From Melioribacteraceae bacterium (GTDB lineage Bacteria > Bacteroidota > Ignavibacteria > Ignavibacteriales > Melioribacteraceae), in contig JAIPBD010000007.1 of NCBI GenBank assembly GCA_021739765.1, positions 62,001 through 126,000 of the forward strand: DNA of 64,000 bases. The letters are read 5' to 3'. Positions 47,864 to 63,295 of this stretch are shown in pieces. Under the pieces are notes generated by a model that made no database searches, was not told the DNA's origin, and saw only the letters and a program-made list of their open reading frames with translations. Positions within the stretch are counted from its first letter, which is position 1, and the number at the start of each line of letters is the position of its first letter. A program made the translations under genes and the position numbers.

Positions 47864-48751
47864 GTGAATATGATGTATCAATTAACCCGAAAGGAAAAAC
47901 AACTTTTAATTTTTCTCTCTAAATATGAGCACCTCACCATAGATCAATTAACATTGCTCAACAAAACTGGCAAAAGAATTATTCAAAAAAGGGTGATGAT
48001 TTTAGAGAGAGCAGGTCTTCTTTCTAACGATCAACTGATTTGTAATTCAAACCGGGGTCGCCCAAGTTCTGTTTTATTTTTATCTGACAAAGGACAAAAT
48101 GTATTAAAGGCTGAGGGTATCAAAATCAAGGAGATGATTCCGACCAAAAACAAATCCAATAAAAGAAAAGATATCAACCATCAGCTTCTAGTTAACTGGT
48201 TTAAGATTTACCTAACGAATCTGACATCAGTGATCGAAGATCTCGAACACGATTTTCACGAAGACCTTGAGGCTAAACTAACAGATAGTTCAAAAGATAA
48301 ATTTTCATTAAACTTGTACGATATTAAATTTTTTATCCCGGACGCAGTTTTTGTCATGGACAGCAAAAAGCAAAATAAGAGTCTATTATTTTTTCTTGAA
48401 GTGGATATGTCTACCGAGACAATATCGAGCAACAAAAACAGTACCAATACGATTGAAAATAAGATTAAAAATTATCGGGAATATTTTACCAACAAATCCT
48501 ACAAACAGTTCGAGAAAAAGTGGAAAACTAAATTCAACGGGTTTAGATTACTTATTCTAACAAATACTACTAAGAGAAAAATCACACTGGCTAACCTAAT
48601 TAACTCAGAGTCCTCGAATGACTTTATATGGGTAACAGATCAAAATCTTTTGCACGAAAGAGGAGTAGGGTCAAAAATATGGCTTCGAGGTGGAAGAAAA
48701 AATTCACCGCTAGGATCCATTCTGGGGCCAAACTTAGCCACACTTAAATAG
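47864..48751 (+). CDS. Replication-relaxation family-like DNA-binding protein
   Basis: 295 residues. The N-terminal third is a winged helix (LTRKEKQLLIFLSKYEHLTIDQL; RIIQKRVMILERAGLL). After a lysine-rich hinge comes NHQLLVNWFKIYL, then FFIPDAVFVMD and SLLFFLEVDMSTETI, followed by KNYREYF and a strand LLILTNTTKR. This order matches the replication-relaxation (Replic_Relax) family found on plasmids and integrative elements, which takes part in DNA relaxation or replication start. It is the first gene of the element after ssrA. No relaxase partner is visible. Confidence 0.65.
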   Translation: MNMMYQLTRKEKQLLIFLSKYEHLTIDQLTLLNKTGKRIIQKRVMILERAGLLSNDQLICNSNRGRPSSVLFLSDKGQNVLKAEGIKIKEMIPTKNKSNKRKDINHQLLVNWFKIYLTNLTSVIEDLEHDFHEDLEAKLTDSSKDKFSLNLYDIKFFIPDAVFVMDSKKQNKSLLFFLEVDMSTETISSNKNSTNTIENKIKNYREYFTNKSYKQFEKKWKTKFNGFRLLILTNTTKRKITLANLINSESSNDFIWVTDQNLLHERGVGSKIWLRGGRKNSPLGSILGPNLATLK

Positions 48752-49254: not shown

Positions 49255-50480
49255 ATGAAACTTACACCAGAAAGAATCAAACGCCTCGAAGAAGAACTCT
49301 CCAAAGCCAAAACCTACGGTGACCTCATGGGCAAGAATGGGGCTATCAAGAATTTAATGAAAGAAGCTCTTGAGAGTATGCTTGATGCTGAATTGACCGA
49401 AGAGCTTGGATAATGAAAAGCATTCTTCTTTGGGCAGCAATTCCGGTAATTCAAGAAACGGACATTCCAGAAAATCGATAAAATCAGATAACGGTTAGAT
49501 AGATCTGCGAGTCCCTCGAGATCGCAATGGAGAGTTTGATCCGGTAATCATCAAAAAGTATGAAAAAACATTGGTCCTATCGAAGATAAAATTATTTCGA
49601 TGTACGCTAAAGGAATGACTACCCGAGATATCCAATCGCATGTTGAAGAACTCTACGGACTGGATTTTTCTCCAACGTTAGTTTCGAATATTACTGAGAA
49701 AATTGTTGAGAAAGCCAAAGAATGGCAAAGCCGTCCCCTTGAAGAATTCTATGCTGTTGTATTTTTTGATGCCATTCACTATAAAGTGAGAGAAGATGGC
49801 AAAGTGCGCTCTAAGGCTGCTTATAGATGCTTATCAGTAAATATGGAGGGAAAAAAGGACTTGCTGGGACTTTGGGTTGGAGAAGCTGAAGGAGCTAATT
49901 TTTGGCTTTCAGTATTGACCGAACTAAACAACCGTGGAGTTAAGGATATTCTGATTGCATCGGTCGACGGCCTAAATGGATTCCCGGAAGCCATTGAATC
50001 TGTTTTCCCAAAGTGTGAGATCCAACAATGCATAATTCATCAAATTACAAATTCACTGAAGTATGTTGCTTCTAAAAATCAGAAAGAGTTCGCTAAAGAT
50101 ATGAAGGCAATTTATACTGCTCCGCCTGAAGATGGTGCTCTTACTGAACTTGAAAACCTTGAAGATAAGTGGGGAAGCAAATATCCTTTGCCGATAAATT
50201 CTTGGAAAAAAACTGGAATAATTTGGCTGTCTTTTTCAAGTATCCCGATGAGATCCGACGAATGATTTACACTACGAACGCTATTGAAAATGTTCATCGT
50301 CAATTTAGAAAGGTCACTAAAAATAGAAGCCTTTTCCCAAATGATGACGCTCTAATTAAAATGTTATATCTCGCTTATAGAGATATCTCTAAAAAATGGA
50401 CACGGCCAGTTAGAAACTGGACCTTTATTATTTCTCAATTATCGATTAGATTTGAGGAGAGACTCAAAAACGTTCTCTAA
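49255..50480 (+). pseudogene. IS256-family (mutator-type) transposase, inactivated
   Basis: The frame opens at ATG 49255 (MKLTPERIKRLEEEL), stops at TAA 49411, continues in another frame as DNEKHSSLGSNSGNS with one further in-frame stop (TAG), returns to the first frame by about 49600 (MYAKGMTTRDIQSHVEELYG), and shifts again near 50200 into the frame ending FEERLKNVL. Together these pieces make a normal mutator-type transposase with the DDE residues in VFFDAIHYK, ASVDGLNGF and NAIENVHRQF. At least three frameshifts and one stop codon mean it cannot be active. Confidence 0.88.
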
Positions 50481-50510: not shown

Positions 50511-50610
50511 CAGTCTCTTACACTCGACTATTGGTTATTTATCTCCGGTTGAATATGAGAAATTAACTTAACTAACTTGATTTTTTGTCTACTTTATGGG
50601 GTAAAGATCA
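50511..50610 (+). mobile_element. 3' remnant of an IS3-family element
   Basis: The frame from 50518 reads LHSTIGYLSPVEYEKLT and stops at 50569-50571, which is the usual C-terminus of the IS3-family OrfB integrase. After it, TGTCTACTTTATGGGGTAAAGATCA (50586-50610, given here only as a probable right end) looks like an IS3-type terminal repeat ending in CA. The rest of the element is missing; the IS256-family element abuts it. The right bound is uncertain because the primase frame runs through the same bases. Confidence 0.55.
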
Positions 50611-51430
50611 ATTTGGAGTCTACCCACTTATTGGTACAAAAACCTATATGGCAGTTGCAGATTTTGACAGCAAAGACCCAAGACCACCAATTGACCTAAT
50701 TAAACTTGCGGAACATTATGAACTCCCAGTATATCTGGAGAAAAGTGAAAGCAAAGGATTTCATGTATGGATGTTTTTCGATAGGGAAGGGGTATCTGCA
50801 AAAAAGATCAATATTGTGCTTCAATATTTACTGGGAGAACTAAATCTTAAACACATTGAAATATTTCCAAAACAAGACCAAATTATAAACAATAAGCAAT
50901 TTGGGAATTTTATAAACACACCATTATTTGGTAAATATCAAAATGACTCAAAAACAAAATTCGTAAAACCCACCATAAACACTCCGGTAATTGAAAACCA
51001 GTGGCAATTCTTAAAAAGCATCAAACGAAACACACAGAAACAAATAGATGAAATAATTGCTATCAATGAATTAGGGGATCAAAACCCATACCCAAAGAAA
51101 CATCCAGAATCAAAGAAAACTTATGGTCTGCCTCCGTGTATGCAAAAAATATTGGAAAACGGAGTAACTCAGAATCAAAGAATAGCTTGCTTCCGTCTCG
51201 CAACTGCATTAAAAAAAACTGGACTCTCCGAAGAACACTCACTCAAAATCCTAATTCAATGGAGCCACAAAAACAAACCGCAAAACAGACAGAGGATAAT
51301 CTCAACAAATGAAATAATTGAACAAACCGAGTGGGGATACAAACCCAAATACAATAGTTATGGTTGCGAAGATGAAGTAATAAAATCATTCTGCTCATCA
51401 GAATGCAACATCCAAAGGAAATTCGATTAA
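50585..51430 (+). pseudogene. 5'-truncated mobile-element primase with archaeo-eukaryotic primase fold and PriL-like Cys domain
   Basis: 281 residues are open from TTG 50585, but this start probably belongs to an IS3 end, so the true N-terminus is lost. The catalytic part keeps the DxD motif (Asp26, Asp28 in VADFDSKD) and the S-x-H-type motif (His60 in SKGFHVWMFF) of archaeo-eukaryotic primases, as in TOTE-type and mobile-element primases. The C-terminal part (LPPCMQKIL, Cys185; then Cys261, Cys270 and Cys274) resembles the iron-sulfur domain of the large primase subunit. It would have primed element replication. Whether the stump is expressed is unknown; AT-rich flanks and the IS contact suggest decay. 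Confidence 0.6.
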
Positions 51431-51547: not shown

Positions 51548-51778
51548 ATGTCTGATCGAAATTTAGTGGTTATAGAACTGGAACAACTCTTCACAATAAT
51601 CAAAGATACACTCAGGCAAGAAATAGTAAATAAAAATCAAACTCCTCAAAAAGGACTTATGAACTTCAAAGAAACATGCGAATTCTTGAGAATTCATCCC
51701 TCAACACTAAACAAATTGAAAGTGGAAAACAAAATCCCATTTAAGCGTCTAGGGAAAATGAAAAAGAGAAAATCCTAA
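51548..51778 (+). pseudogene. Excisionase-like HTH protein, copy 1 (frameshifted C-terminus)
   Basis: The ATG at 51548 is used, with AGAAGGA nine bases upstream; 76 residues remain. The sequence closely matches the HTH gene at 62987 (shared MNFKETCEFL, IHPSTLNK, ENKIPFKRLGK), but about ten bases are missing after GGGAAA near 51756, so the frame shifts and the protein ends early at KKRKS. The downstream DNA (AGAAAATCCTAAAAACTCT) still matches copy 2. The HTH core itself is intact. The family is the small MerR/excisionase-type DNA binders of mobile elements. Confidence 0.75.
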
Positions 51779-52096
51779 AAACTCTATTGAGGGATATTAT
51801 AACAAGAGAAGGAGACATTCATATTTGAACTATCTTTCCCCATGTGATTTCGAAAATTATCAATTAAGTTAATGACTTAACTCAGTGCACTCTTTTGAGG
51901 GGGCAGATCAATATATCGGTAGCAGAATGTATCATTCGCACCCCAGCCTATATTTCTTATAGTTTTAAGCCATATTCGAACTACAACGCTTCTCCTTGTC
52001 CAGAATTTGTTTAAAGCAAATAAACACTATTGCCATTGTGGATTCTATTCCCATTTTTACTTAGTTTAATACTTTAATTTTGACTTTTGGATATTA
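51779..52096. other. Gene-free stretch before hsdR
   Basis: About 318 bases, AT-rich. The first dozen bases continue the similarity to the end of HTH copy 2; beyond that no coding frame, hairpin terminator or clear promoter was seen, apart from a small TTAAGT/ACTTAA inverted repeat near 51865-51885. The hsdR promoter must lie here if the gene is expressed. Confidence 0.5.
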
Positions 52097-54862
52097 ATGA
52101 CTCCGGAGCAGAAAGCACGTCAAAATATCGATGCTCAGCTTATCTCAGCAGGCTGGCAAGTTCAATCCCTTAAAGATTTTAATCCTTCATCAAACTTTGG
52201 AATTGCTGTAACCGAATACCCAACACAATCCGGTAGTGCTGATTATCTCTTATTTGTTGACCGTAAACCTGTCGGTGTAATTGAGGCGAAGGCAGAAGGG
52301 AAGACTCTGAGCCAGGTACATGATCAAACAGAACGATACGCAACAGATAAACTAAAGTATATCGGCAAAAAAGAAGACCTACCTTTTCAATATGAATCAA
52401 CTGGAACAGAAACTTACTTTACCGATGCTCGTGATCCTTCACCAAGGCAGAGAGAAATATTTCACTTTCATAAACCGGAAACTCTTTATGAAATGTTTAC
52501 TCAAGGAACTGCACTCCGATTAAGATTAAAAACTTTTCCTCAATTGAATTATGATGGATTAAGGCAGTGTCAGATAAATGCTATTACAAATCTAGAAAAC
52601 TCATTTGCAGAAAATCATCCACGCGCGTTAGTGCAGATGGCAACCGGTGCCGGTAAAACTTTTACTGCAATTACATCAGTGTACAGGCTGCTTAAGTTTG
52701 CAAGGGCTAAGAGAATCTTATTCCTTGTCGATACAAGAAATCTAGGCAAGCAGGCAGAACAAGAGTTCCAAGCATATAAACCAAACGACGATAAAAGATT
52801 ATTTACCGAACTCTATAATGTTCAGCGGCTGCAATCAAATTTTATTGATCCATCCTCGCAAGTATGTATAAGTACAATTCAAAGAATGTATTCAATTCTT
52901 AAGGGCAAAGAACTTGATGAGAGTCTAGAAGATGATTCGCCGTATGAATCCAAACTGATAAAGAATAAAATTGATGAAGTCGTCTATAACGAAACAGTCC
53001 CAATAGAAACATTTGACTTCATAATCATCGATGAATGTCATCGTTCGATTTATAATTTATGGAAACAGGTTCTAGATTACTTCGATGCATTTATGATAGG
53101 GCTTACTGCAACACCGGATAAAAGAACATTCGCATTCTTTAATGAAAATGTTGTAAGTGAATATACACTCAAGGATTCGATATCAGATAAAGTAAACGTT
53201 GGTTATGATGTTTATACTATTGAGACAGAAATTACCCAGAAGGGTGCTGAGATAAAGGCTAAAGAATATGTCGATCTGCGCAATAAGCAGACCCGTAAAA
53301 AGGAATGGCGGCAGCTTGACGATGAAATTAAATATGAAGGTACTCAGTTAGATAGGGATATTGTCAATCCAAGTCAGATCAGAAATATTATCCGTGAGTT
53401 TAAACGAATCCAAAAAGATGTATTCTTCCCTGAGCGCGGCGAGGATAAGGAAGTGCCTAAGACTCTCATCTTTGCAAAGACAGATAGCCATGCGGAAGAT
53501 ATTGTTCATATAGTCAGGGAAGAGTTTGGCGAAGGAAATGACTTCTGTAAAAAGATAACTTACAAAGTACAAGGAGAAGACCCGGAATCCGTTCTTCAGC
53601 AGTTCAGAACCGCATATAATCCACGTATAGCTGTTACAGTTGATATGATTGCAACAGGTACAGACGTAAAGCCCATAGAGGTACTAATCTTTATGCGCGA
53701 TGTCCGGTCAAGAAATTATTTCCAGCAGATGATAGGACGAGGCGTTCGTTCACTACTAAAGGATGATTTGCGAAAAGTTACTAACAGTGCGAAAGTAAAC
53801 AAAGAACGTTTTTATATTATTGATGCAGTCGGTGTTTTCAAATCTGTTAAAGTTGATTATCCTGTTGTTGATAAAAAACCTACTGTCCCTCTCAAAGATT
53901 TAATGAAAATGGTTATGCTGCAGCCTGATGAAGATACTGTTACTTCTCTTTCATCCAGATTAACAAGATTAGCAAAACAAATTTCTGATAGTGACAATGA
54001 AAAGTTTAAGGAACTTAGCGGTGGTAAATCAATTGAAGATGTAGCAAACGAATTAGCCGATCTTTATGATCCTGATTTTCAATTTGATGCTGCTGTTGAG
54101 AAGTTTAATCTGCCGGAAGATACCGAACCGACCGAAGAACAAATACGATCATCAGTTAAACCAATAATTCAATCGTCTGTTAAACCATTTGACAATCCAA
54201 AACTCAGAGACTTTATAGAAACAGTCCGGCAAAAAGTTTATCAAGTGATAGACACAGTTAATATTGATAGAGTAACTTTCTCCGATTTTGATGAGAAGGC
54301 AAAGGAGAACGCTGAAGCAGTAATAGGTTCTTTCAGAATGTTCATCGAAGAGAACAAAGATGAAATTATTGCTCTTAAGATTTTATACAGTCAGCCGGAG
54401 CGGAGAAAAGAGCTTAACTACAAAATGATAAAGGAACTAAAAGAGATTTTGAACAATGCGCCTTATCATTTATCAACCGAACAGATTTGGAATGCATATG
54501 GTAGATTATATCCGGCAAAGGTGAGCGGCACAACCGCACAGAGAATGTTAACCGATATAATTTCTTTGCTACGTTTTGAACTAAAGATTGATGATATGCT
54601 TATACCTTACGGAGATATTATTAACCGCAATTACCGCGATTGGATGTTTAAGAAAAATGCCGGACCGGTACAGTTTACAAATGAACAAGTTGAATGGCTG
54701 CGTATGATAAAAGAACATCTTGTAACTTCTGTTAGAATAGATAAAAAAGATTTTGACTTCTCACCGTTTGTGGATAAAGGCGGACTTGGAAAATTCTGGA
54801 AGGTATTCGGTAACGATACAGAAAGACTTTTGGAAGAAATAAATGAGGAATTGGCAGCTTAA
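52097..54862 (+). CDS. hsdR: Type I restriction enzyme R subunit (HsdR)
   Basis: 921 residues. The N-terminal PD-(D/E)xK nuclease has Asp49 in SADYLLF and Glu63-x-Lys65 in VIEAKAEG. Two RecA-like motor domains follow: Walker A ATGAGKTFTAI near residue 185, motif II DECH at 312-315, GLTATP, and the C-terminal motor motifs VTVDMIATGTDVKP and IGRGVRS. A C-terminal HsdR helical region of the EcoEI type completes the protein. With HsdM and HsdS it moves DNA and cuts unmethylated DNA at a distance. All key residues are intact. The SIR2-like gene starts 33 bases downstream. Confidence 0.95.
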   Translation: MTPEQKARQNIDAQLISAGWQVQSLKDFNPSSNFGIAVTEYPTQSGSADYLLFVDRKPVGVIEAKAEGKTLSQVHDQTERYATDKLKYIGKKEDLPFQYESTGTETYFTDARDPSPRQREIFHFHKPETLYEMFTQGTALRLRLKTFPQLNYDGLRQCQINAITNLENSFAENHPRALVQMATGAGKTFTAITSVYRLLKFARAKRILFLVDTRNLGKQAEQEFQAYKPNDDKRLFTELYNVQRLQSNFIDPSSQVCISTIQRMYSILKGKELDESLEDDSPYESKLIKNKIDEVVYNETVPIETFDFIIIDECHRSIYNLWKQVLDYFDAFMIGLTATPDKRTFAFFNENVVSEYTLKDSISDKVNVGYDVYTIETEITQKGAEIKAKEYVDLRNKQTRKKEWRQLDDEIKYEGTQLDRDIVNPSQIRNIIREFKRIQKDVFFPERGEDKEVPKTLIFAKTDSHAEDIVHIVREEFGEGNDFCKKITYKVQGEDPESVLQQFRTAYNPRIAVTVDMIATGTDVKPIEVLIFMRDVRSRNYFQQMIGRGVRSLLKDDLRKVTNSAKVNKERFYIIDAVGVFKSVKVDYPVVDKKPTVPLKDLMKMVMLQPDEDTVTSLSSRLTRLAKQISDSDNEKFKELSGGKSIEDVANELADLYDPDFQFDAAVEKFNLPEDTEPTEEQIRSSVKPIIQSSVKPFDNPKLRDFIETVRQKVYQVIDTVNIDRVTFSDFDEKAKENAEAVIGSFRMFIEENKDEIIALKILYSQPERRKELNYKMIKELKEILNNAPYHLSTEQIWNAYGRLYPAKVSGTTAQRMLTDIISLLRFELKIDDMLIPYGDIINRNYRDWMFKKNAGPVQFTNEQVEWLRMIKEHLVTSVRIDKKDFDFSPFVDKGGLGKFWKVFGNDTERLLEEINEELAA

Positions 54863-54895: not shown

Positions 54896-57800
54896 ATGAG
54901 AAATAAACACTTAACTGAGCTAAATGCAGATGGGAGAAAATTTTTACGTGAAGAAGTTTTTCCTAAGATGAGGTCAAGAAATGCAGTGTTGTTTATTGGA
55001 GCAGGAGCTTCAGTAGGCGAAAAAAAATATCTTTCATCAGAAATTATTTCGTATCATAGTGCTCTTGAAGGATTGGATATTGATGAAACTGATATCACTA
55101 AATATGTCGATATTCTAAGTTCATTGGCAGATTTTGATAGGGCCAAATTTGATGATTTTATTAGTAGTATATTGAGAAAATTGAAGCCTACAGCTACTCA
55201 TAAGATAATCCTCTCAATTCCTTGGAAGGAAATTATTACAACTAATTTTGATACTGTCATTGAGCAAACATTTGATTTAATTACAGGCACACCAAATGAA
55301 AACTTACAAGTAAAAACAATTCACAATCTAAATGACTATAATTATGTACCAGCTAATGAAGAATTAAAATACGTAAAATTGAATGGGTGTATTTGTGATA
55401 ATACTAAATATCCGCTAATTATTAGTTCAAAAGATTTTGAATCTGTTCGTCCTTATCACAAACAAGTTATTAAAAGCCTCCAAAATACTTCTCACAAAGT
55501 TATATTCTTAACAATAGGTTACGGTTTTAATGATAAATTCTCAGAGAAATTATTTGATTATTTTAATTCATTTAACGTGAGAAAGAATAATCCGATTTAT
55601 AGAGTTGATCCTAGTATAAAAAAAGAACTTTTACCTTATTATGAAGACCAAGATTTTTCTATCATAAAGTTAAGTTCAGAAGATTTTTTTAATGAATACA
55701 ATAAATGGATAGAGGAAACTGATGGAAATACGACTCTATTTCGAGATAGTGATTTTAGAGATAATAATAATACTTCAATATCACTTTCACATCTATCAAA
55801 ACTGAATATAGCGGATAACATTCTTCAGTATGGCAAAAATTATAAGAGAAATTATATAGATCCCAAAGATTTCTACCTGGGTAAAGAACCTAATCTCAAT
55901 ATTATAATGGGGGAATATGATGTATCATCAAAAGATGTGATTGATAATGTACATCTTGAGTTGAATAGGTGTATCGAGGCAAACGATAGTACGTTAGTCC
56001 CTGTACTATTACTCACTGGCAGATACGGAATAGGAAAAACTACAATTATGTACAGAGCAATCCATGATTATGTTTTAAAAGGTGGAGGTAAAGCTCAAGC
56101 GTTCGAAGTCCTTAATCTTGATAAAATAAAAATCTCAGCACTTGATGAACTATTTAAGAAAACTAATGCTGAAATTATTCTTCTAAATGTAGATCATATC
56201 GAAATTGATAGTGCATTTAAAAATTTGATAAAATTCCGTAACGAGCTCAGCATTGAGCAGTTTGCAGAATATAAGGTGATCCTTATTTCCTCAATAAGAG
56301 AGAATATACTGCAGAAACATCTCTTGAGAAAATCCTATAAATCTATTAAGCAAATCGAAGTTTCTAATAAACTGGATGAAGACTTAGCTGGTGAGTTAAT
56401 TAAAAAATTAGAGTCGGTTAAATTATTGCGATTTCGTGACCAGAGGGAAAAACAGAAACATATCAAGAAGATACAAAAGGAATACAATGGTGAGCCTTTC
56501 ATCGCACTTACAAATCTGTTGGATAATACAAATCACAACAGAATAATAATTGATGCATTTAATCAACTAAGCGAACATACTAAGAAAGCTGTTATTTACA
56601 CTTCATTTTTGCATAGATTCTCATTAATGATGCCTAGTACTCTTTTAAGAAGATTGGTGGGGCTTGAATGGGATGACTTTATACAAAAGATAATCACATT
56701 TGATAGCAAAGGGTTGCTTATACAGTTTGAAAATCATTCTTCTGGTGTTGAACCAGATATTTATTTTCATACACCTCATCAGTTACTTGCGGATGATGTT
56801 GTTAAATTATTCTATCCAAAAGAAGATAGTCGCTTTTACATGTATGTCGAAATTATTAAAAAAATTGAGGTTGGACTGAGCAGTGCAAAACTAATTGTAG
56901 ATTTATTAAAAGGATTGCGCTTGAGTGAGGACTTATCGCAAGAAAAAATTAATAAACTGTTTGATTCATGCCCACAAGAATTAGAATTAGACCCACATTT
57001 TATGATTCATTATAGTCTTAACATACAATATAGATATGAAGAGAAATCGATAAAGAAAGCACTTGAGAAAATAACTTATCTTCAGTCAGTATTGGATTCA
57101 AGAAATCATTTCTTAATTCATAGAAGGGCGACATTAAATTTTCAATTAGCTAAACTGAATTATGATCGAGAAAAAGAATTAGACAAAACACTAGAATATA
57201 TAAAAGAAGCAAGGGATCTCTTTAATCTCAAACTTATAATCGATCCGTTTAGTTCATACAGCTATATTAACTTTGTACAAATGGAAATTTGGTATTTGTC
57301 AAAAGCTAAATTAAATCGAGTTGATGAACTTAGACAGATTAGTATTATTGAGGACTTAATATCTCAGGGTGAACAAAAGGCATTTGAAAATGTGCATAAT
57401 ATTTCAGAGTTGAGAAAAGATCTGAGTCGTATTATGACTGTAGAAATGGGTAAAAATGAGGAAGAAATTCTTAACAACCTCGATGAAATGAAATTAGATA
57501 GTAGGTATGCAGCTTATGCATTTATTCTTGAGTTTTATATTTATGAGAAAAAAGATGATAAACCAAAATTGGAAGAAGTAGTAAATAATCTGAATGAATA
57601 TATTCATCTTGATGAGGTTGCAAAAGTTTTATTTAAATATTACGGTAAAAATTTACACCAGTTTGAAAATCGAATGATTTTTGAAAAAATTGTTAATAAT
57701 AATAAAAATTTAGAAAAACAGTATCCTGTTTTATATCACTATTACAATTATGTGATAGAAGCTTACAAACACCACTTCTCTTTGTCCAAAGATCATCTGT

Positions 57801-58063
57801 ATAGTTTGCGAGCAAATTTCAAGTACCTCAACCCTCAGCTCACTGAAGTTTGGCGTAATGAAGTAACTAATGAGCCAGAAATATTTGAAGGAATTGTCAA
57901 AAAAAACAAGTATGGCTCATTTAAAGTAGCTGTTGTTGAGTTAACACAAACGTTTGGATTAAAAAAATCTAGTTATAAGAACATTGATTTATCTTCAAAC
58001 TCCAAGCATAAAGTTAAACTATATTTTTATTTAACAGGAATTCGCGCAGAGCTAATTAGTTAA
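54896..58063 (+). CDS. SIR2-domain / P-loop (STAND-like) NTPase defence-type protein
   Basis: 1055 residues. The N-terminal SIR2-like NAD-binding domain (about 25-275) has GAGAS (35-39), ITTNFD (114-119, with Asn117) and GYGFND (208-213). The segment where the catalytic His is expected reads KLNG (161-164), so Asn163 replaces it. A P-loop NTPase follows: Walker A GRYGIGKTT (375-383) and a Walker B-like strand IILLNVDH (Asp433). The last 450 residues are helical and repeat-like, as in STAND sensors (for example KALEKITYLQSVLDSRNHF). This is the architecture of Avs5-like or related defence proteins that deplete NAD after sensing phage. It lies between hsdR (33-base gap) and hsdS (25-base gap), so it is probably in the restriction operon. 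The trigger is unknown. Confidence 0.82.
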   Translation: MRNKHLTELNADGRKFLREEVFPKMRSRNAVLFIGAGASVGEKKYLSSEIISYHSALEGLDIDETDITKYVDILSSLADFDRAKFDDFISSILRKLKPTATHKIILSIPWKEIITTNFDTVIEQTFDLITGTPNENLQVKTIHNLNDYNYVPANEELKYVKLNGCICDNTKYPLIISSKDFESVRPYHKQVIKSLQNTSHKVIFLTIGYGFNDKFSEKLFDYFNSFNVRKNNPIYRVDPSIKKELLPYYEDQDFSIIKLSSEDFFNEYNKWIEETDGNTTLFRDSDFRDNNNTSISLSHLSKLNIADNILQYGKNYKRNYIDPKDFYLGKEPNLNIIMGEYDVSSKDVIDNVHLELNRCIEANDSTLVPVLLLTGRYGIGKTTIMYRAIHDYVLKGGGKAQAFEVLNLDKIKISALDELFKKTNAEIILLNVDHIEIDSAFKNLIKFRNELSIEQFAEYKVILISSIRENILQKHLLRKSYKSIKQIEVSNKLDEDLAGELIKKLESVKLLRFRDQREKQKHIKKIQKEYNGEPFIALTNLLDNTNHNRIIIDAFNQLSEHTKKAVIYTSFLHRFSLMMPSTLLRRLVGLEWDDFIQKIITFDSKGLLIQFENHSSGVEPDIYFHTPHQLLADDVVKLFYPKEDSRFYMYVEIIKKIEVGLSSAKLIVDLLKGLRLSEDLSQEKINKLFDSCPQELELDPHFMIHYSLNIQYRYEEKSIKKALEKITYLQSVLDSRNHFLIHRRATLNFQLAKLNYDREKELDKTLEYIKEARDLFNLKLIIDPFSSYSYINFVQMEIWYLSKAKLNRVDELRQISIIEDLISQGEQKAFENVHNISELRKDLSRIMTVEMGKNEEEILNNLDEMKLDSRYAAYAFILEFYIYEKKDDKPKLEEVVNNLNEYIHLDEVAKVLFKYYGKNLHQFENRMIFEKIVNNNKNLEKQYPVLYHYYNYVIEAYKHHFSLSKDHLYSLRANFKYLNPQLTEVWRNEVTNEPEIFEGIVKKNKYGSFKVAVVELTQTFGLKKSSYKNIDLSSNSKHKVKLYFYLTGIRAELIS

Positions 58064-58088: not shown

Positions 58089-59291
58089 ATGCATTTTTAT
58101 AAAAACCTAGATCATTTTACTATTATCGTTATGGGTCAATCTCCGCCATCCTCAACTTACAATGAGACTGGTGTGGGATTGCCATTCTTTCAAGGCAAAT
58201 CAGAATTTACCGATTTACATCCGGTTCCAAAGAAATGGTGTTCAGAACCGAAAAAGATTGCACAAGAAAATGACATTTTAATGTCAGTCAGAGCTCCGGT
58301 CGGAGCTACCAATATGGCAAATCAAGAATGTTGCATTGGGCGTGGTTTAGCAGCAATTAGATATCCTGATTGTCCGAAGTACTTATTGTATTTTTTACGT
58401 TCGATTGAAAATGAATTGGATAACCTTGGAACAGGTACAACTTTCAAAGCGATTTCGGCGGGAACATTAAGGAATTTAGAAATCCCTCTCCCACCACTCC
58501 CAGAGCAACACCGCATAGTAGAAAAAATAGAAGAACTATTCAGCGAACTAGACAACGGAATTGAAAATCTCAAAAAATCAAAAGCGCAGATAAAAACTTA
58601 CCGGCAAGCGGTACTTAAGTCCGCGTTTGAAGGAAAACTGACACAAGATAAAAGAACAAAGATAAAAGATAAAAGTGGGGATGGTGAGCTGCCGGAGGGC
58701 TGGGAATTTGAAACTGTAAATGATATTTCTGAAAAAATCGTTGATTGTTTACATTCGACACCAAAGTTTAAAGAATCAGGCAAATATTGTGTTGACACAA
58801 CTTGTATAAAAAATGGGCAAATATTATTTGACAAAATTCGGTTTGTTAGTGAGGAGACATATAATGATAGAATAAGAAGGCTAAAGCCTAAGCAGGGTGA
58901 TATATTATTTGCCCGCGAAGGAACTGTAGGTACAGCCTTAATTGTTCCTCGTGAAATAGAATTATGTCTTGGTCAGAGAATGATGATGTTTAGACCTCGC
59001 AAGGATATATTGTCGAAGTATTTTATGTACTCATTACAATCACCTCAGTTTGTAAAGCAATACAAACCTCTTATTGGCGGTACAACGGCACCGCATTTAA
59101 ACATTAGAGATATCAAAAAATTTCAAATTCCAGTTTGCTCAACTCAACAACAAACCCAAATCGTGGAAGAAATCGAAAGACGTTTTTCGGTTGCTGATAA
59201 AATGGAAGTAGCGATAGATGAAAGTCTTAAAAAATCAGAAGCACTCCGGCAGTCAATCTTAAAGCAAGCGTTTGAAGGGAAGCTAGTTTAG
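58089..59291 (+). CDS. hsdS: Type I restriction specificity subunit (HsdS)
   Basis: 400 residues with the two-fold layout of HsdS: target recognition domain 1 (about 10-135; contains MGQSPPSSTYNE), central conserved region (LPPLPEQHRIVEKIEELFSEL), target recognition domain 2 (starting GELPEGWEFETVND), and a C-terminal conserved region (QIVEEIERRFSVADKME) that pairs with the first. The two halves read different DNA half-sites. The extreme N-terminus is somewhat irregular for the family, so a small 5' change is possible. It follows the SIR2-like gene and precedes a 151-base gap with an AbiE operator candidate. Confidence 0.93.
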   Translation: MHFYKNLDHFTIIVMGQSPPSSTYNETGVGLPFFQGKSEFTDLHPVPKKWCSEPKKIAQENDILMSVRAPVGATNMANQECCIGRGLAAIRYPDCPKYLLYFLRSIENELDNLGTGTTFKAISAGTLRNLEIPLPPLPEQHRIVEKIEELFSELDNGIENLKKSKAQIKTYRQAVLKSAFEGKLTQDKRTKIKDKSGDGELPEGWEFETVNDISEKIVDCLHSTPKFKESGKYCVDTTCIKNGQILFDKIRFVSEETYNDRIRRLKPKQGDILFAREGTVGTALIVPREIELCLGQRMMMFRPRKDILSKYFMYSLQSPQFVKQYKPLIGGTTAPHLNIRDIKKFQIPVCSTQQQTQIVEEIERRFSVADKMEVAIDESLKKSEALRQSILKQAFEGKLV

Positions 59292-59432: not shown

Positions 59433-59442
59433 AAGATAGGTG

Positions 59443-60042
59443 ATGAACGAAATAGTAAAATATATTGAAGAAAAAGGCGGTTATGCTACAATGGGCGAAC
59501 TTCGAGAAGCCGGCTTCCACCCAAGAGATATCCGCAAACTTGTTGATGAAAACACTATTGAAAAAGTTAAGGCAGGTCTATATAAAATCTGGGAATCAAT
59601 TGATGATAGTAAAATTAATTCCGGATTTATTGACATATGCCGGGCAAGTGAACGAGCTGTAATTTGTCTGTCATCTGCACTCGCTTATCATGAACTAAGC
59701 ACACTAAACCCATCGCAGATTTATGCGGCTCTTCCGAAAACTGAAAAACCACCGAAAATTTCTTATCCGCCAGTTAAATTTTATTACTGGGATAAGTCAA
59801 TCAATGAACTAGGTATAGATAAGATAAAAACAAAAAGCGGAATAGTGAGAATATACAATAAAGAAAAAACTGTCTGCGATATGTTCCGGTATCGGGATAA
59901 ACTTGGTGAAGATATTGCTTTTGAAGCACTTAAAAATTATCTCAATCTGAAAGAAGCCAATCTTAATAAACTGCGTGAGTATTCCGTGAAACTGCGTATT
60001 AAAACAGTTCTGCAACCTTACATAAAGGCAATTGTTGGATGA
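59443..60042 (+). CDS. AbiEi-family antitoxin / transcriptional regulator
   Basis: 199 residues from ATG 59443 (a GTG one codon earlier is also possible). The N-terminal winged helix (IVKYIEEKGGYATMGELREAGFHPRDIRKLV in pieces) is followed by the AbiEi C-terminal region (GLYKIWE; AVICLSSALAYHELST; GIVRIYNKEKTVCDMFRYR). It neutralises the AbiEii nucleotidyltransferase in a type IV manner and represses its own promoter. It overlaps abiEii by four bases (ATGA). Confidence 0.9.
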   Translation: MNEIVKYIEEKGGYATMGELREAGFHPRDIRKLVDENTIEKVKAGLYKIWESIDDSKINSGFIDICRASERAVICLSSALAYHELSTLNPSQIYAALPKTEKPPKISYPPVKFYYWDKSINELGIDKIKTKSGIVRIYNKEKTVCDMFRYRDKLGEDIAFEALKNYLNLKEANLNKLREYSVKLRIKTVLQPYIKAIVG

Positions 60043-60932
60043 GTAAAGAAAGCCTTATTACATCTGTTCGCCAGAGATTGAATAAAATTGCAAGGGAGAG
60101 TCAGGTAGATTTTAATGCTATACAATTGCGGTATGTTCAGGAAAGGTTTTTGTACAGGCTTTCTAAATCTACATATCAAAATGCATTCATACTAAAAGGA
60201 GCATTGCTGTTTTTAGCTTATGATATGCCGTCATTAAGACCAACTAAAGATATTGATTTCCTGGGCTCCAACTTAACCAACGATGCCGATGAACTAGAAG
60301 AGATTATAAAAGAGATTTGTGCAATTGAGGTAGAAGACGCGGTGGAGTTTGATTCTGAATCTGTTGATGTTGAAAATATCACAATAGATCGTTTATATCC
60401 CGGTCTAAGGGTAAAAGTAAATGCTTACATGGGAAGGGCAAGGATTACTCTTCAACTGGATCTAGGATACGGAGATATAGTTGTTCCGGAACCTGTAGAA
60501 ATTGAATTCCCGCAGCTGCTTAACTTTGATGCACCGAAGATTCTGTCTTATTCTCTTGAATCAGCTATTGCTGAAAAATTCGAGGCTTGTGTTAAACTCA
60601 ATTTTAGTACAAGCAGAATGAAAGACTTTTATGATATCTATAAATTGGCTTCACATAATTCGTTTGTCTCATCAAGATTATCAAAGGCTATTGCTGAGAC
60701 TTTTGAACAACGAGGTACATCTTTGGATGATAGGAATATAATATTGTCCGATGATTTTAAGTCCGATAAAAAAAAACAAACTCAGTGGAAAGCTTTTCAG
60801 AATAGAACCGGACTACATGCTAACTTTGATTTTCCGGAAACGGTTGATAAAATAAAATTATTCCTTGAAGGGTGTTTAACTGAACAAGAAAAACTTACAA
60901 AATGGAATTCAATAAATTGGCAGTGGGAATAA
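60039..60932 (+). CDS. AbiEii-family toxin nucleotidyltransferase
   Basis: 297 residues of the AbiEii/AbiGii (DUF1814) family. The motifs for an NTase are ILKGALL (Lys53, Gly54) and RPTKDIDFLG (Asp71, Asp73), followed by LQLDLGYGD and SLESAIAEKFEACV, then RMKDFYDIY. Toxins of this family add nucleotides to tRNA or related RNA and stop growth, giving abortive infection. Its ATG overlaps the abiEi stop, so the ratio is fixed by coupling. The gene lies inside the restriction-modification locus, before hsdM. Confidence 0.92.
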   Translation: MSKESLITSVRQRLNKIARESQVDFNAIQLRYVQERFLYRLSKSTYQNAFILKGALLFLAYDMPSLRPTKDIDFLGSNLTNDADELEEIIKEICAIEVEDAVEFDSESVDVENITIDRLYPGLRVKVNAYMGRARITLQLDLGYGDIVVPEPVEIEFPQLLNFDAPKILSYSLESAIAEKFEACVKLNFSTSRMKDFYDIYKLASHNSFVSSRLSKAIAETFEQRGTSLDDRNIILSDDFKSDKKKQTQWKAFQNRTGLHANFDFPETVDKIKLFLEGCLTEQEKLTKWNSINWQWE

Positions 60933-60976: not shown

Positions 60977-61031
60977 CAACAGTTGCAGAAAATGTAACAG
61001 TTAATATTTGTTTCATAAATACAGGTTTATA

Positions 61032-62486
61032 ATGACATCATCTTCTATAGTTTCTAAAGTTTGGAACTACTGCAACATCCTTCGTGACGACGGTGTCGGT
61101 TACGGAGATTATCTAGAACAGTTAACATACCTGCTCTTTCTTAAAATGGCTCATGAATATTCTAAGCCGCCTTTTAATAGAGAGACAATAATTGATAAAA
61201 AATATGATTGGGAATCCCTTACTAATAAGACAGGTGCAGAGCTTGAAGTCCACTATGTAACTCTGCTAAGTGAACTCGGCAAGAAGAAGGGAATGATAGG
61301 GGAGATATTCTTTAAGTCACAGAATAAAATCCAAGATCCTGCTAAGCTAAAAAAGTTAATTGACTTGATTGACGGAGAGAACTGGCTTACGCTTGAAACC
61401 GATATCAAGGGAGATATATACGAAGGTCTCCTCGAGAAGAATGCAGAGGATACGAAGAGCGGCGCCGGTCAATACTTTACTCCTCGAGCGTTAATTAAAG
61501 CTATGGTTGAATGCACCAGGCCGGAACCAAAGAAAACAATTGCTGATCCGGCATGTGGTACTGGAGGCTTCTTCCTGTCCTCATATGAATATCTCAGTAA
61601 ATTAAAATTAGATTCAGAGCAAAAGGAATTTCTGAAGTTCAATACCTTCCGCGGATGGGAGATTGTGCCTAGTGCGGCAAGACTCTGTTTAATGAATCTC
61701 TATCTACATAACATAAGTGATATAGAAAGTGATCCGCCTATTATGCGGGAAGATAGTTTACTAAGTAAGCCCAAAACAAACTATGATTATGTATTGACCA
61801 ATCCGCCATTCGGTAAAAAGAGCAGTATAACAATTACCAATGGTGAAGGAATTCAAAAACGGGAATCGCTTTCTTATGAGCGACAGGATTTTTGGGTAAC
61901 TACTTCCAATAAACAATTAAATTTTGTTCAGCATATTGTTTCGATGCTAAAGCCGGATGGCAGTGCCGCAGTAGTTGTACCTGATAATGTGTTGTTTGAA
62001 GGGGGAGTAGGAGAAACCGTTCGCAAAAACTTATTAGCTAGTACAGATTTCCATACAATTTTAAGATTACCAACCGGTTTATTCTATGCGCAAGGAGTCA
62101 AAGCAAACGTGATCTTCTTCGATAACAAACCGGCTAGTAAAACGCCTTGGACCAAGGAAGTCTGGATATATGACTTAAGGACAAATCAGCATTTCACCTT
62201 AAAGACAATGCAGATGAAATATGATCATCTTGAAGATTTTGTTAAATCCTATAATCCAAAGAATAGACATAAACGTACTGAAACAGAGCAATTCAAGAAA
62301 TTCACTTACGATGAAATAATCGCTCGCGACAAAACGAACCTGGATATCTTTTGGCTTAAAGATGAAAGTCTCGGAGATACCGAAAACCTTCCTGATCCCG
62401 ATATTTTGGCGATGGAGATTGTTGAAAATATTGAAGCTAGCTTGGATAGTTTTAAAGAGATAATCCAAAAGCTGGAGAGACTGTAA
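61032..62486 (+). CDS. hsdM: Type I restriction modification methyltransferase subunit (HsdM)
   Basis: The frame extends upstream to TTG 61008, but the ATG at 61032 (MTSSSIVSKVWNY) is the family-like start; 484 residues. An N-terminal HsdM helical domain (LRDDGVGYGDYLEQLTYLLFLKMA) is followed by the N6-adenine methyltransferase: AdoMet motif ADPACGTGGFF (from 171) and the catalytic NPPF (257-260). It forms M2S with HsdS and protects host DNA. It is separated from hsdS by the abiE genes and has its own upstream palindrome. The last codons (AGA CTG TAA) coincide with the end repeat of an IS256-family remnant, so the natural C-terminus may have been replaced. Confidence 0.95.
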   Translation: MTSSSIVSKVWNYCNILRDDGVGYGDYLEQLTYLLFLKMAHEYSKPPFNRETIIDKKYDWESLTNKTGAELEVHYVTLLSELGKKKGMIGEIFFKSQNKIQDPAKLKKLIDLIDGENWLTLETDIKGDIYEGLLEKNAEDTKSGAGQYFTPRALIKAMVECTRPEPKKTIADPACGTGGFFLSSYEYLSKLKLDSEQKEFLKFNTFRGWEIVPSAARLCLMNLYLHNISDIESDPPIMREDSLLSKPKTNYDYVLTNPPFGKKSSITITNGEGIQKRESLSYERQDFWVTTSNKQLNFVQHIVSMLKPDGSAAVVVPDNVLFEGGVGETVRKNLLASTDFHTILRLPTGLFYAQGVKANVIFFDNKPASKTPWTKEVWIYDLRTNQHFTLKTMQMKYDHLEDFVKSYNPKNRHKRTETEQFKKFTYDEIIARDKTNLDIFWLKDESLGDTENLPDPDILAMEIVENIEASLDSFKEIIQKLERL

Positions 62487-62756
62487 AATATTTTGTGTAA
62501 ATGGAAGTTGCTAAGTAGAGCCATCAAATCAATTCTCAAAATAAATTGAAGAATTACGAAAGAACAATAACCCATTATCTAATCGGCATCGTCTCTTCCT
62601 TCCGATAACAGATAATGTTTTTGATAAATCTCCATAAGCCAGAAACAGCATTTTTTTGAGTGCATCATCATTAGGAAAGAGGCTCCGATTTTTAGTTACT
62701 TTTCTAAACAGTTGAGGGACAGAGTCAACGACATTTGCTTATTTGAACAAACACAA
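62477..62756 (-). mobile_element. IS256-family remnant, inverted relative to the copy at 49.1 kb
   Basis: The left border GAGACTGTAAAATATTTTGTGTAAATGG (28 bases from 62477; the first 12 bases equal the right end of the other copy) is an IS256-type end repeat. Reading the minus strand, the fragment encodes LFRKVTKNRSLFPNDDAL followed by KKMLFLAYG and, after frameshifts, an IVLS/FFNLF tail, matching the C-terminal part of the transposase at 49.2-50.5 kb. The rest is missing. The right bound is approximate. Confidence 0.72.
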
Positions 62757-62986: not shown

Positions 62987-63295
62987 ATGGAAAACCGAAA
63001 CCTTGTAGTAATAGAAACCGAACAACTTATAGTGCTAATAAAAGAAGCAATTAAAGCAGAACTATCCAATAAAAACGAAATACCCCAAAAAGAACTCATG
63101 AACTTCAAAGAAACATGCGAATTCTTGGGAATTCACCCCTCAACGCTAAACAAATGGAAAGCAGAGAATAAAATTCCATTCAAACGCCTGGGGAAAAGAG
63201 TTTTCTTTGAAAGAGAGAAAATCCTAAAAACTCTAAAACAGCCAGATCATCTTGCTGGATTCAGAAAGAAAGCAAATTCAAATAGCTATGGATGA
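62987..63295 (+). CDS. Excisionase-like HTH protein, copy 2
   Basis: 102 residues. An N-terminal coiled helix (residues 1-35) precedes a MerR/excisionase-type helix-turn-helix (MNFKETCEFLGIHPSTLNKWKAENK in overlapping pieces, about 40-65) with the wing PFKRLGKRVFFERE. It is intact, whereas the closely similar gene at 51548 is frameshifted. Such proteins usually direct excision or regulate an integrative element. The two copies flank the restriction island in the same orientation. No integrase is next to it. Confidence 0.75.
   Translation: MENRNLVVIETEQLIVLIKEAIKAELSNKNEIPQKELMNFKETCEFLGIHPSTLNKWKAENKIPFKRLGKRVFFEREKILKTLKQPDHLAGFRKKANSNSYG

Follow-up and report, generated by a model that had tools for sequence, protein, structure and literature searches.

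A SIR2-STAND gene lies between hsdR and hsdS of a type I restriction operon in a Melioribacteraceae bacterium (GenBank assembly GCA_021739765.1, contig JAIPBD010000007.1, positions 62,001 to 126,000 of the forward strand; this whole stretch of 64,000 nucleotides (nt) is the window). With a probability that we put at roughly two in three, it encodes a receptor resembling Avs5 and the core of SAMD9, which has a sensor of its own and rides as swappable cargo of the hsd operon. Judged from motifs, a structure model and the analogy with characterized systems, the protein probably senses phage and destroys the nicotinamide adenine dinucleotide (NAD) of the cell. On this reading the position of the gene would be explained by the two cargo slots of this hsd family, one between hsdR and hsdS (slot 1, R-S) and one between hsdS and hsdM (slot 2, S-M). 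The embedding of genes in hsd loci has itself been published; the new part is the occurrence, in that position, of an Avs5-like receptor with a SAMD9-type OB end.

The gene is an intact open reading frame (ORF) for 1055 residues at 54896-58063 on the plus strand, and a DNA search of its own genome (37 contigs) gave a single match. An earlier note on this DNA had described a 1055-residue protein between hsdR and hsdS with gaps of 33 and 25 nt, as is confirmed by the ORF and its Pfam-typed neighbours, and had seen in it an N-terminal SIR2 domain, a P-loop nucleoside triphosphatase (NTPase) and a helical C-terminus. These are borne out by Pfam SIR2_2 (residues 111-242, 5.2e-13), by a Walker A motif of the form Gx4GKT at residues 375-382 (with G375, K381 and T382) and by the repeats of the structure model. 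The description was correct but had missed the predicted OB end, the AbiEi/AbiEii pair in the second slot and the more likely hsdM start at ATG 61032. The gene and its parts are as follows.

54896 to 58063, plus strand: SIR2-STAND-TPR-OB gene (1055 residues), slot 1 cargo (ORF, Pfam, model, fold comparison)
54926 to 55720, plus strand: SIR2 domain, residues ~11-275 (Pfam, motifs, fold)
55868 to 56395, plus strand: STAND-type NTPase, residues ~325-500 (Pfam, alignment, model)
56573 to 57820, plus strand: helical (TPR-like) repeats, residues ~560-975, putative sensor (model)
57848 to 58060, plus strand: C-terminal OB or cold-shock-like domain, residues ~985-1055 (predicted fold)

The Pfam matches to nSTAND_NTPase5 (7.9e-8) and nSTAND3 (3.2e-4) both stay under the curated cut-offs; G375, G380 and K381 are unchanged across the 11 rows of alignment A3, and the NTPase also has a Walker B-like stretch (429-438) and an SSIREN motif (465-470). 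The structure model (mean predicted local distance difference test score 82, predicted template modelling score 0.50) has helical repeats at the C-terminus, and its last ~80 residues form an OB-type barrel, for which Foldseek by itself gave no match better than E 0.13. No Pfam family was found in the last 186 residues, nor an AlbA_2 domain by Pfam anywhere in the protein (the N-terminus starts with SIR2), and the NCBIfam search of the protein assigned no family.

The SIR2 domain carries the motifs GAGAS (35-39) and TTNFD (115-119), and in KLNG (161-164) an Asn stands where the catalytic His is expected, i.e. an NG motif. At 33-41% identity, the family consists of the window protein and 13 relatives (L002 and L013-L024; L010, L011 and L012 are the loci of L013, L021 and L019). 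The motif survey covered the 12 members with a readable SIR2 domain (window, L002, L013-L018 and L021-L024), with duplicate loci counted once and with L019 and L020, which are truncated at contig ends, set aside. GAG[AS]S and TTNxD are retained in all 12, while the position equivalent to the His holds N in 10 members, S in L013, C in L021 and H in none; among distant relatives, L003, L005, L066 and L067 have HG at the catalytic site, as does L004, which is without the GAGxS form. The loss of the His from all 12 members would fit a SIR2 domain that is a non-catalytic scaffold; the effector function would then fall to the OB domain, through its binding of nucleic acid, or to a partner, for instance an AlbA_2 protein, as in SAMD9. 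Such a role would also agree with the SAMD9-core-like architecture, the tRNase of SAMD9 being located in the AlbA region, outside Sir2 (PMC13245274; here and below, sources given by PMC number are cited from their accessible parts), and with locus L020, where the next gene encodes an SLFN_AlbA_2 protein. The latter adjacency may be chance, because AlbA_2-type ORFs make up the biggest cargo cluster of the hsd family (13 of 111 ORFs, two members checked by Pfam). Set against the scaffold are the retained GAG[AS]S and TTNxD motifs, the intact Walker A Lys, which is Gly in the SAMD9 family (PMC5445408), and the fact that NG supports defence in Avs5: PaAvs5-1 carries NG, NG is roughly as frequent as HG in Avs5, the site requires Asn or His (Ala or Gln kills protection), and the Avs5 Sir2 domain hydrolyses NAD upon infection (PMC12931631). 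As NG works in Avs5, the loss of the His is no argument against an NADase, and we consider a purely structural SIR2 domain quite unlikely. We consider it plausible, and our best guess, that an NTPase switch controls an NAD-targeting effector, because of the SIR2-STAND architecture, the intact Walker A motif, the GAGxS and TTNxD motifs and the closest folds.

The nearest folds are those of Avs5, ThsA, DSR2, KomC and human SAMD9, the last being matched along the entire protein. The likeness to Avs5 (AVAST type 5, a SIR2-STAND system with examples in PaAvs5-1 and EfAvs5) lies in the N-terminal SIR2_2 domain with GAGxS and TTNxD, the NG site and the C-terminal repeats that form the putative sensor; the window protein differs in adding a C-terminal cold-shock-like OB domain past the aligned range (model residues 3-866), in being embedded in hsd, and in that a sequence-profile match to Avs5 was not found. 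ThsA of the Thoeris system has the nearest SIR2 domain by both sequence and fold, although in the alignment the window protein has Asn in place of its catalytic His, and to our knowledge ThsA lacks both STAND and TPR parts. DSR2 likewise has SIR2 followed by a long helical region (fold match 8.4e-10); the window protein differs by its Walker A NTPase and its OB domain, both of which DSR2 lacks as far as we know. The core of the SAMD9 family, to which human SAMD9 and SAMD9L belong, consists of AlbA_2, a variant Sir2, a STAND-like P-loop, TPR and a cold-shock-like OB domain; some members of that family have lost AlbA_2 and Sir2, and its bacterial members, found notably in actinomycetes, in many cases have a kinase domain ahead of the core (Mekhedov et al. 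2017, PMC5445408). In its predicted structure the window protein has Sir2-like, P-loop, TPR and OB parts in the same order, but it is without AlbA_2 or a SAM domain, the best Z of the SAMD9 fold match, 13.6, is below that of Avs5, and GKT at 380-382 keeps the P-loop Lys where Gly replaces it in the SAMD9 family (GGT/S; PMC5445408). Although it has the Sir2-to-OB order, it keeps the Lys, and we therefore do not file it as a member of that family. The resemblance between Avs5 and SAMD9 is already in print, since a structural match between PaAvs5 and SAMD9 is reported in PMC12931631. It is possible, if doubtful, that the link is one of descent: the window protein would then be a bacterial relative of the SIR2-STAND-TPR-OB core with NTPase and NG-type NADase sites intact, bridging Avs5 and SAMD9, and its OB domain would sense nucleic acid, possibly tied to the products of restriction.

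The operon is arranged as hsdR, SIR2-STAND gene, hsdS, AbiEi, AbiEii and hsdM, all on the plus strand, with successive intergenic gaps of 33, 25, 148, -4 and 99 nt, the last counted from ATG 61032 as the hsdM start, which is more likely than TTG 61008. Pfam typed the neighbours as HsdR (ResIII, EcoEI_R_C, HSDR_N), HsdS (Methylase_S) and HsdM (N6_Mtase), and the AbiEi/AbiEii toxin-antitoxin pair occupies the second slot, between hsdS and hsdM (59440-60932). The guanine plus cytosine (GC) fraction is 0.299 in the SIR2-STAND gene and 0.353-0.388 in the five adjacent genes.

52097 to 54862, plus strand: hsdR, first conserved anchor (Pfam; DNA similarity to loci L025 and L026 stops at the hsdR stop codon)
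58089 to 59291, plus strand: hsdS (Pfam)
59440 to 60042, plus strand: AbiEi antitoxin, slot 2 cargo (Pfam, PADLOC)
60039 to 60932, plus strand: AbiEii nucleotidyltransferase toxin, slot 2 cargo (Pfam, PADLOC)
61032 to 62486, plus strand: hsdM, second conserved anchor (mechanical ORF from TTG 61008; Pfam, DNA similarity)

That the operon is a carrier follows from a comparison within the class, where 38 of 392 genomes contain matches to the window HsdM at E 1e-120 (40 places including its own); the 40 loci compared are the 39 others besides the window, plus L020. Slots were counted in the 29 loci that allowed R (for some loci only a piece at the contig edge), S and M all to be located. Of these 29, 25 have more than 300 nt in slot 1 and 25 in slot 2; 21 have it in both slots and every locus in at least one, and the medians are 1837 nt (slot 1) and 1502 nt (slot 2). 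These counts include L044, where slot 1 is an HsdS fragment, and L056, which has only an antisense ORF in slot 1 and 217 nt in slot 2 and drops out if same-strand cargo is required; R ends or M starts were misplaced for some loci (e.g. L031, L034, L037, L041 and L048), leaving the slots above 300 nt unchanged. Cargo ORFs of at least 110 residues number 111 in 63 clusters, some of them probably not cargo (e.g. those of L049, where hsdS was not found). Among the 30 of these searched against Pfam, 23 have a family at E 0.001 (two, in L028 and L061, only under the curated cut-off) and 7 have none; the families comprise SLFN_AlbA_2, Fic, RhuM, PDDEXK, OLD-type AAA, UvrD, TIR_2, GmrSD_N, DUF4062, HEPN_Swt1, NA37, Metallophos with nSTAND4 and NERD-helicase. 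PADLOC, run on 10 cargo, gave clear systems in Gabija (L033), TIR-APAZ with short pAgo (L034), PDC-S60 (L062) and PDC-M30A (L028), furthermore PDC-M55C/HEC-05 in L026, Ppl in part in L061 and a weak result in L055, and no match for the 418-residue cargo ORF of L029.

Three cargo arrangements may be mentioned separately. Slot 1 of L062 (372-3455) holds a calcineurin-like phosphoesterase with a STAND NTPase (PDC-S60), i.e. the same receptor logic with a different effector. TIR-APAZ and short Argonaute genes occur in slot 1 of both L034 (by PADLOC) and L050 (by clustering), and in slot 1 of L029 and L039 a gene for an NA37 nucleoid-associated protein (Pfam, L029) stands beside a gene of ~420 residues, twice by clustering.

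The anchors themselves are well conserved: HsdR and HsdM of L025 and L026 share 91-96% protein identity with those of the window (HsdR of L025 being split in two ORFs). DNA similarity to these loci begins at 52054, stops with the hsdR stop codon and resumes at 61025-61031 to extend through hsdM, and between the anchors only 58482-58708 and 59146-59291 of hsdS align (shorter in L025). L029, L031, L033, L061 and L062 repeat these four islands as far as their contigs cover them; L028 is without the second hsdS stretch and L027 has the last two islands only. Because DNA similarity breaks at the anchor boundaries, we infer that cargo is exchanged between conserved anchors by recombination.

Slots characterize some hsd families and are no general artefact of gene finding, as the two groups of loci in a control differ in this respect. 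The control started from the HsdM of L019, a second hsd family with matches in 18 of 295 genomes, and comprised 15 of these 18 loci (the genome of L019 itself and two others were left out). Where HsdM is 72-76% identical (L070-L076), all 7 loci have additional ORFs, placed between hsd genes or immediately in front of hsdM, hsdR being recognised among these only in L071 and L074. The extras are a SIR2 protein fused to a Ser/Thr kinase between hsdR and hsdM (L071:4515-6866), a SIR2 protein upstream of hsdM at a locus where hsdR was not identified (L072:15984-18347), an AAA-PRTase protein (L074), a NACHT protein (L076) and other ORFs (L070, L073 and L075). Where HsdM is 48-54% identical (L077-L084), hsdM and hsdS abut or overlap in 8/8, the exceptions elsewhere in these loci being 217 nt between hsdR and hsdM in L082 and a 219-residue ORF between hsdS and hsdR in L083.

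In Campylobacter, hsd loci carry intervening genes in both slots, namely rlo and mlo (PMC5183652), and further hsd-embedded examples are PrrC, DarTG2 and TgvAB (PMC2610378, PMC12255303, PMC11411939, PMC12707154). The positions known for embedded genes are those from hsdR to hsdS and from hsdS to hsdM, and also that from hsdS to hsdR (PMC5183652, PMC12255303, PMC11411939). The window gene is likewise placed between hsdR and hsdS and shares their strand, whereas its cargo type and host phylum differ from those of rlo/mlo, PrrC, RloC, DarTG2 and TgvAB. SIR2/HerA of Streptococcus thermophilus is inserted between or downstream of restriction-modification systems (PMC11514479); it is a two-gene system and not a SIR2-STAND protein, and a position within an hsd operon is not described in the accessible part of that source. 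In the literature searched, with preprints and most subscription journals outside its scope, no report of this family or of an hsd-embedded SIR2-STAND gene was seen. Payne et al. 2024 are credited, by papers citing them, with the idea of finding defences by embedding.

A number of observations weigh against the receptor-as-cargo reading. The fold matches over the whole length have template modelling scores of just 0.18-0.37 by query length, with large root-mean-square deviations (25-28 A for Avs5, 9-11 A for SAMD9). The earlier note had proposed a comparison with known profiles and folds, in which the folds agree (Avs5, DSR2, ThsA) and a match to Avs5 profiles was not obtained. PADLOC gave no match to an Avs5 model at E 0.01 (the presence of that model in PADLOC-DB being unchecked) and none for two relatives at E 0.001, and an hmmsearch of PDB sequences with the A3 profile retrieved no Avs5 chain at E 10, and no SAMD9 match, the presence of SAMD9 chains there being unchecked. 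The Avs5 proteins of PMC12931631 themselves share just 18-21%, however. The S and C variants (L013 and L021, 2/12) may, going by the residues, argue against an NADase. Finally, among 13 pairs of loci with a common slot 1 cargo cluster, just two have a similar first HsdS recognition domain (L029/L039, 0.77 identity; L050/L059, 0.65; for the 452 other pairs the median is 0.26 and the 95th percentile 0.35), and the window and L034 have this domain in common (0.65) with unlike cargo, so that the comparison of cargo with recognition domain is mixed: 2/13 pairs for linkage and window/L034 against.

The distribution of the family bears on whether the gene belongs to the restriction enzyme. Scans of genome and viral contigs with the single protein gave no match; with alignment A1, 12 loci were found in the genome contigs and none in the viral contigs, and phage records held no match to the protein. 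Members occur in 4/392 sampled genomes of the class (E 1e-20), 4/395 of the phylum and 3/165 of the order (both E 1e-25), with the own genome counted each time and with some of these genomes carrying relatives of the distant kind. Two of the 13 relatives lie within a type I operon: in L019 the gene ends 3 nt before hsdM, which is followed by hsdS, and in L020 the SLFN_AlbA_2 gene that follows it precedes an hsdM 67% identical to that of the window. Two more adjoin restriction genes, namely L018, with an Eco57I-type gene 267 nt upstream, and L021, with hsdM and hsdS on the opposite strand, hsdM ~5 kilobases (kb) off. Within ~10 kb per side an hsd link is absent in 7/13 (L002, L013, L014, L015, L016, L022 and L023), L002 having close by a DUF4011/DUF3320 helicase with a restriction-type MTES_1575 domain, and in 2/13 the flank is too short (L017, 111 nt on one side; L024, 1.2 and 0.7 kb). 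These assignments are based on similarity to the window Hsd proteins and in a few cases on Pfam, so that unlike families could escape. Among the distant relatives, L004 sits 376 nt after hsdS-hsdR, and no hsd gene was found across the annotated stretch of L003 and L005. As a side observation, a 1289-residue ORF without Pfam match (L021:5213-9079) and small ORFs lie between hsdM and the SIR2-STAND gene of L021.

The position between hsdR and hsdS with short gaps, the placement of L019, L020 and the distant L004, and the other SIR2 proteins beside hsdM of the second hsd family (L071, L072) speak for the guard proposed in the earlier note, in which, as for PrrC, HsdRMS would keep the protein silent and the SIR2 effector would fire when a phage anti-restriction protein inhibits restriction. 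Homologues are indeed linked to hsd genes, but only a minority of them, whereas PrrC orthologues are described as invariably linked to a type Ic system; RloC, linked in 8/73, is the better parallel (PMC2610378). In a tree with 16 rows, from which L024 was omitted and in which one piece stands for L023, the hsd-linked copies, three in number, formed one clade in 0% of 200 bootstrap trees, and well-supported branches force at least 2 changes; with a label carried by only three rows, this non-clade result is the most that the tree can show. Embedded TgvAB protects without HsdR activity, though more weakly alone than within its cluster (PMC11411939), and the window protein has its own sensor-like TPR and OB domains in the predicted structure. 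As a minority of relatives is linked and the slots are filled by unrelated defence genes such as Gabija, a guard role becomes less likely; we regard it as unlikely. A guard inferred from linkage was tried as the leading explanation and dropped, with 7/13 relatives free of an hsd link and no single hsd-linked clade. Of the two ideas in the earlier note, that of an NAD-targeting effector thus stays plausible from motifs and folds, while that of a guard dedicated to the restriction enzyme is not upheld. A passenger decaying without function might explain the low GC (0.299) and the several ORFs into which L023 and L024 are broken in metagenome-assembled genomes; the window copy is intact and its motifs are conserved at 33-41% identity to the relatives, which makes decay very improbable.

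For a receptor carried as cargo, the following course of events can be envisaged. The C-terminal TPR and OB domains would bind a phage product, the STAND NTPase would, as in its family, oligomerise the receptor, and the assembled SIR2 domains would hydrolyse NAD and halt the infected cell, as the motifs and the examples of Avs5, ThsA and DSR2 suggest; HsdR, HsdM or HsdS would not be needed as sensor. Defence genes would be swapped by recombination in the R-S and S-M slots observed between the hsdR, hsdS and hsdM anchors, and the cargo would gain the expression and transfer of the operon.

The hsd island is bracketed by two stretches in direct orientation (51557-51786 and 62996-63235) that are 75% identical over 240 nt, the latter an HTH_17 gene by Pfam and the former its paralogue. 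To the left lies an apparently broken Mutator-family transposase gene (Pfam, 49600-50265) and to the right a 94-nt inverted match (62615-62708, 78%) to 50304-50397; gene and inverted match are remnants of a mobile element. Upstream of hsdR are an AEP-TOTE primase-polymerase-like ORF (50585-51430) and a protein of the Replication-relaxation family (Replic_Relax, 47864-48751), the latter perhaps a sign that the region descends from a plasmid or element. A promoter scan gave 49 sites against 44.5 in shuffles, i.e. chance level; terminator-like sites numbered 10 against 5.9 expected (standard deviation 2.1), with 3/10 on the plus strand, from which we draw no inference, and a search for a short pattern near hsdR gave one site where 0.93 were expected.

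The distinction between carriage in an operon and function as its guard, two things that are easily confused, is kept here, and an hsd family that acts as a two-slot carrier helps to uncover new defence genes. If the proposed reading is true, the gene provides a tractable bacterial protein with a SAMD9 core and live active sites, which would allow phage assays to test what the Sir2-like and OB domains contribute to a human antiviral factor.

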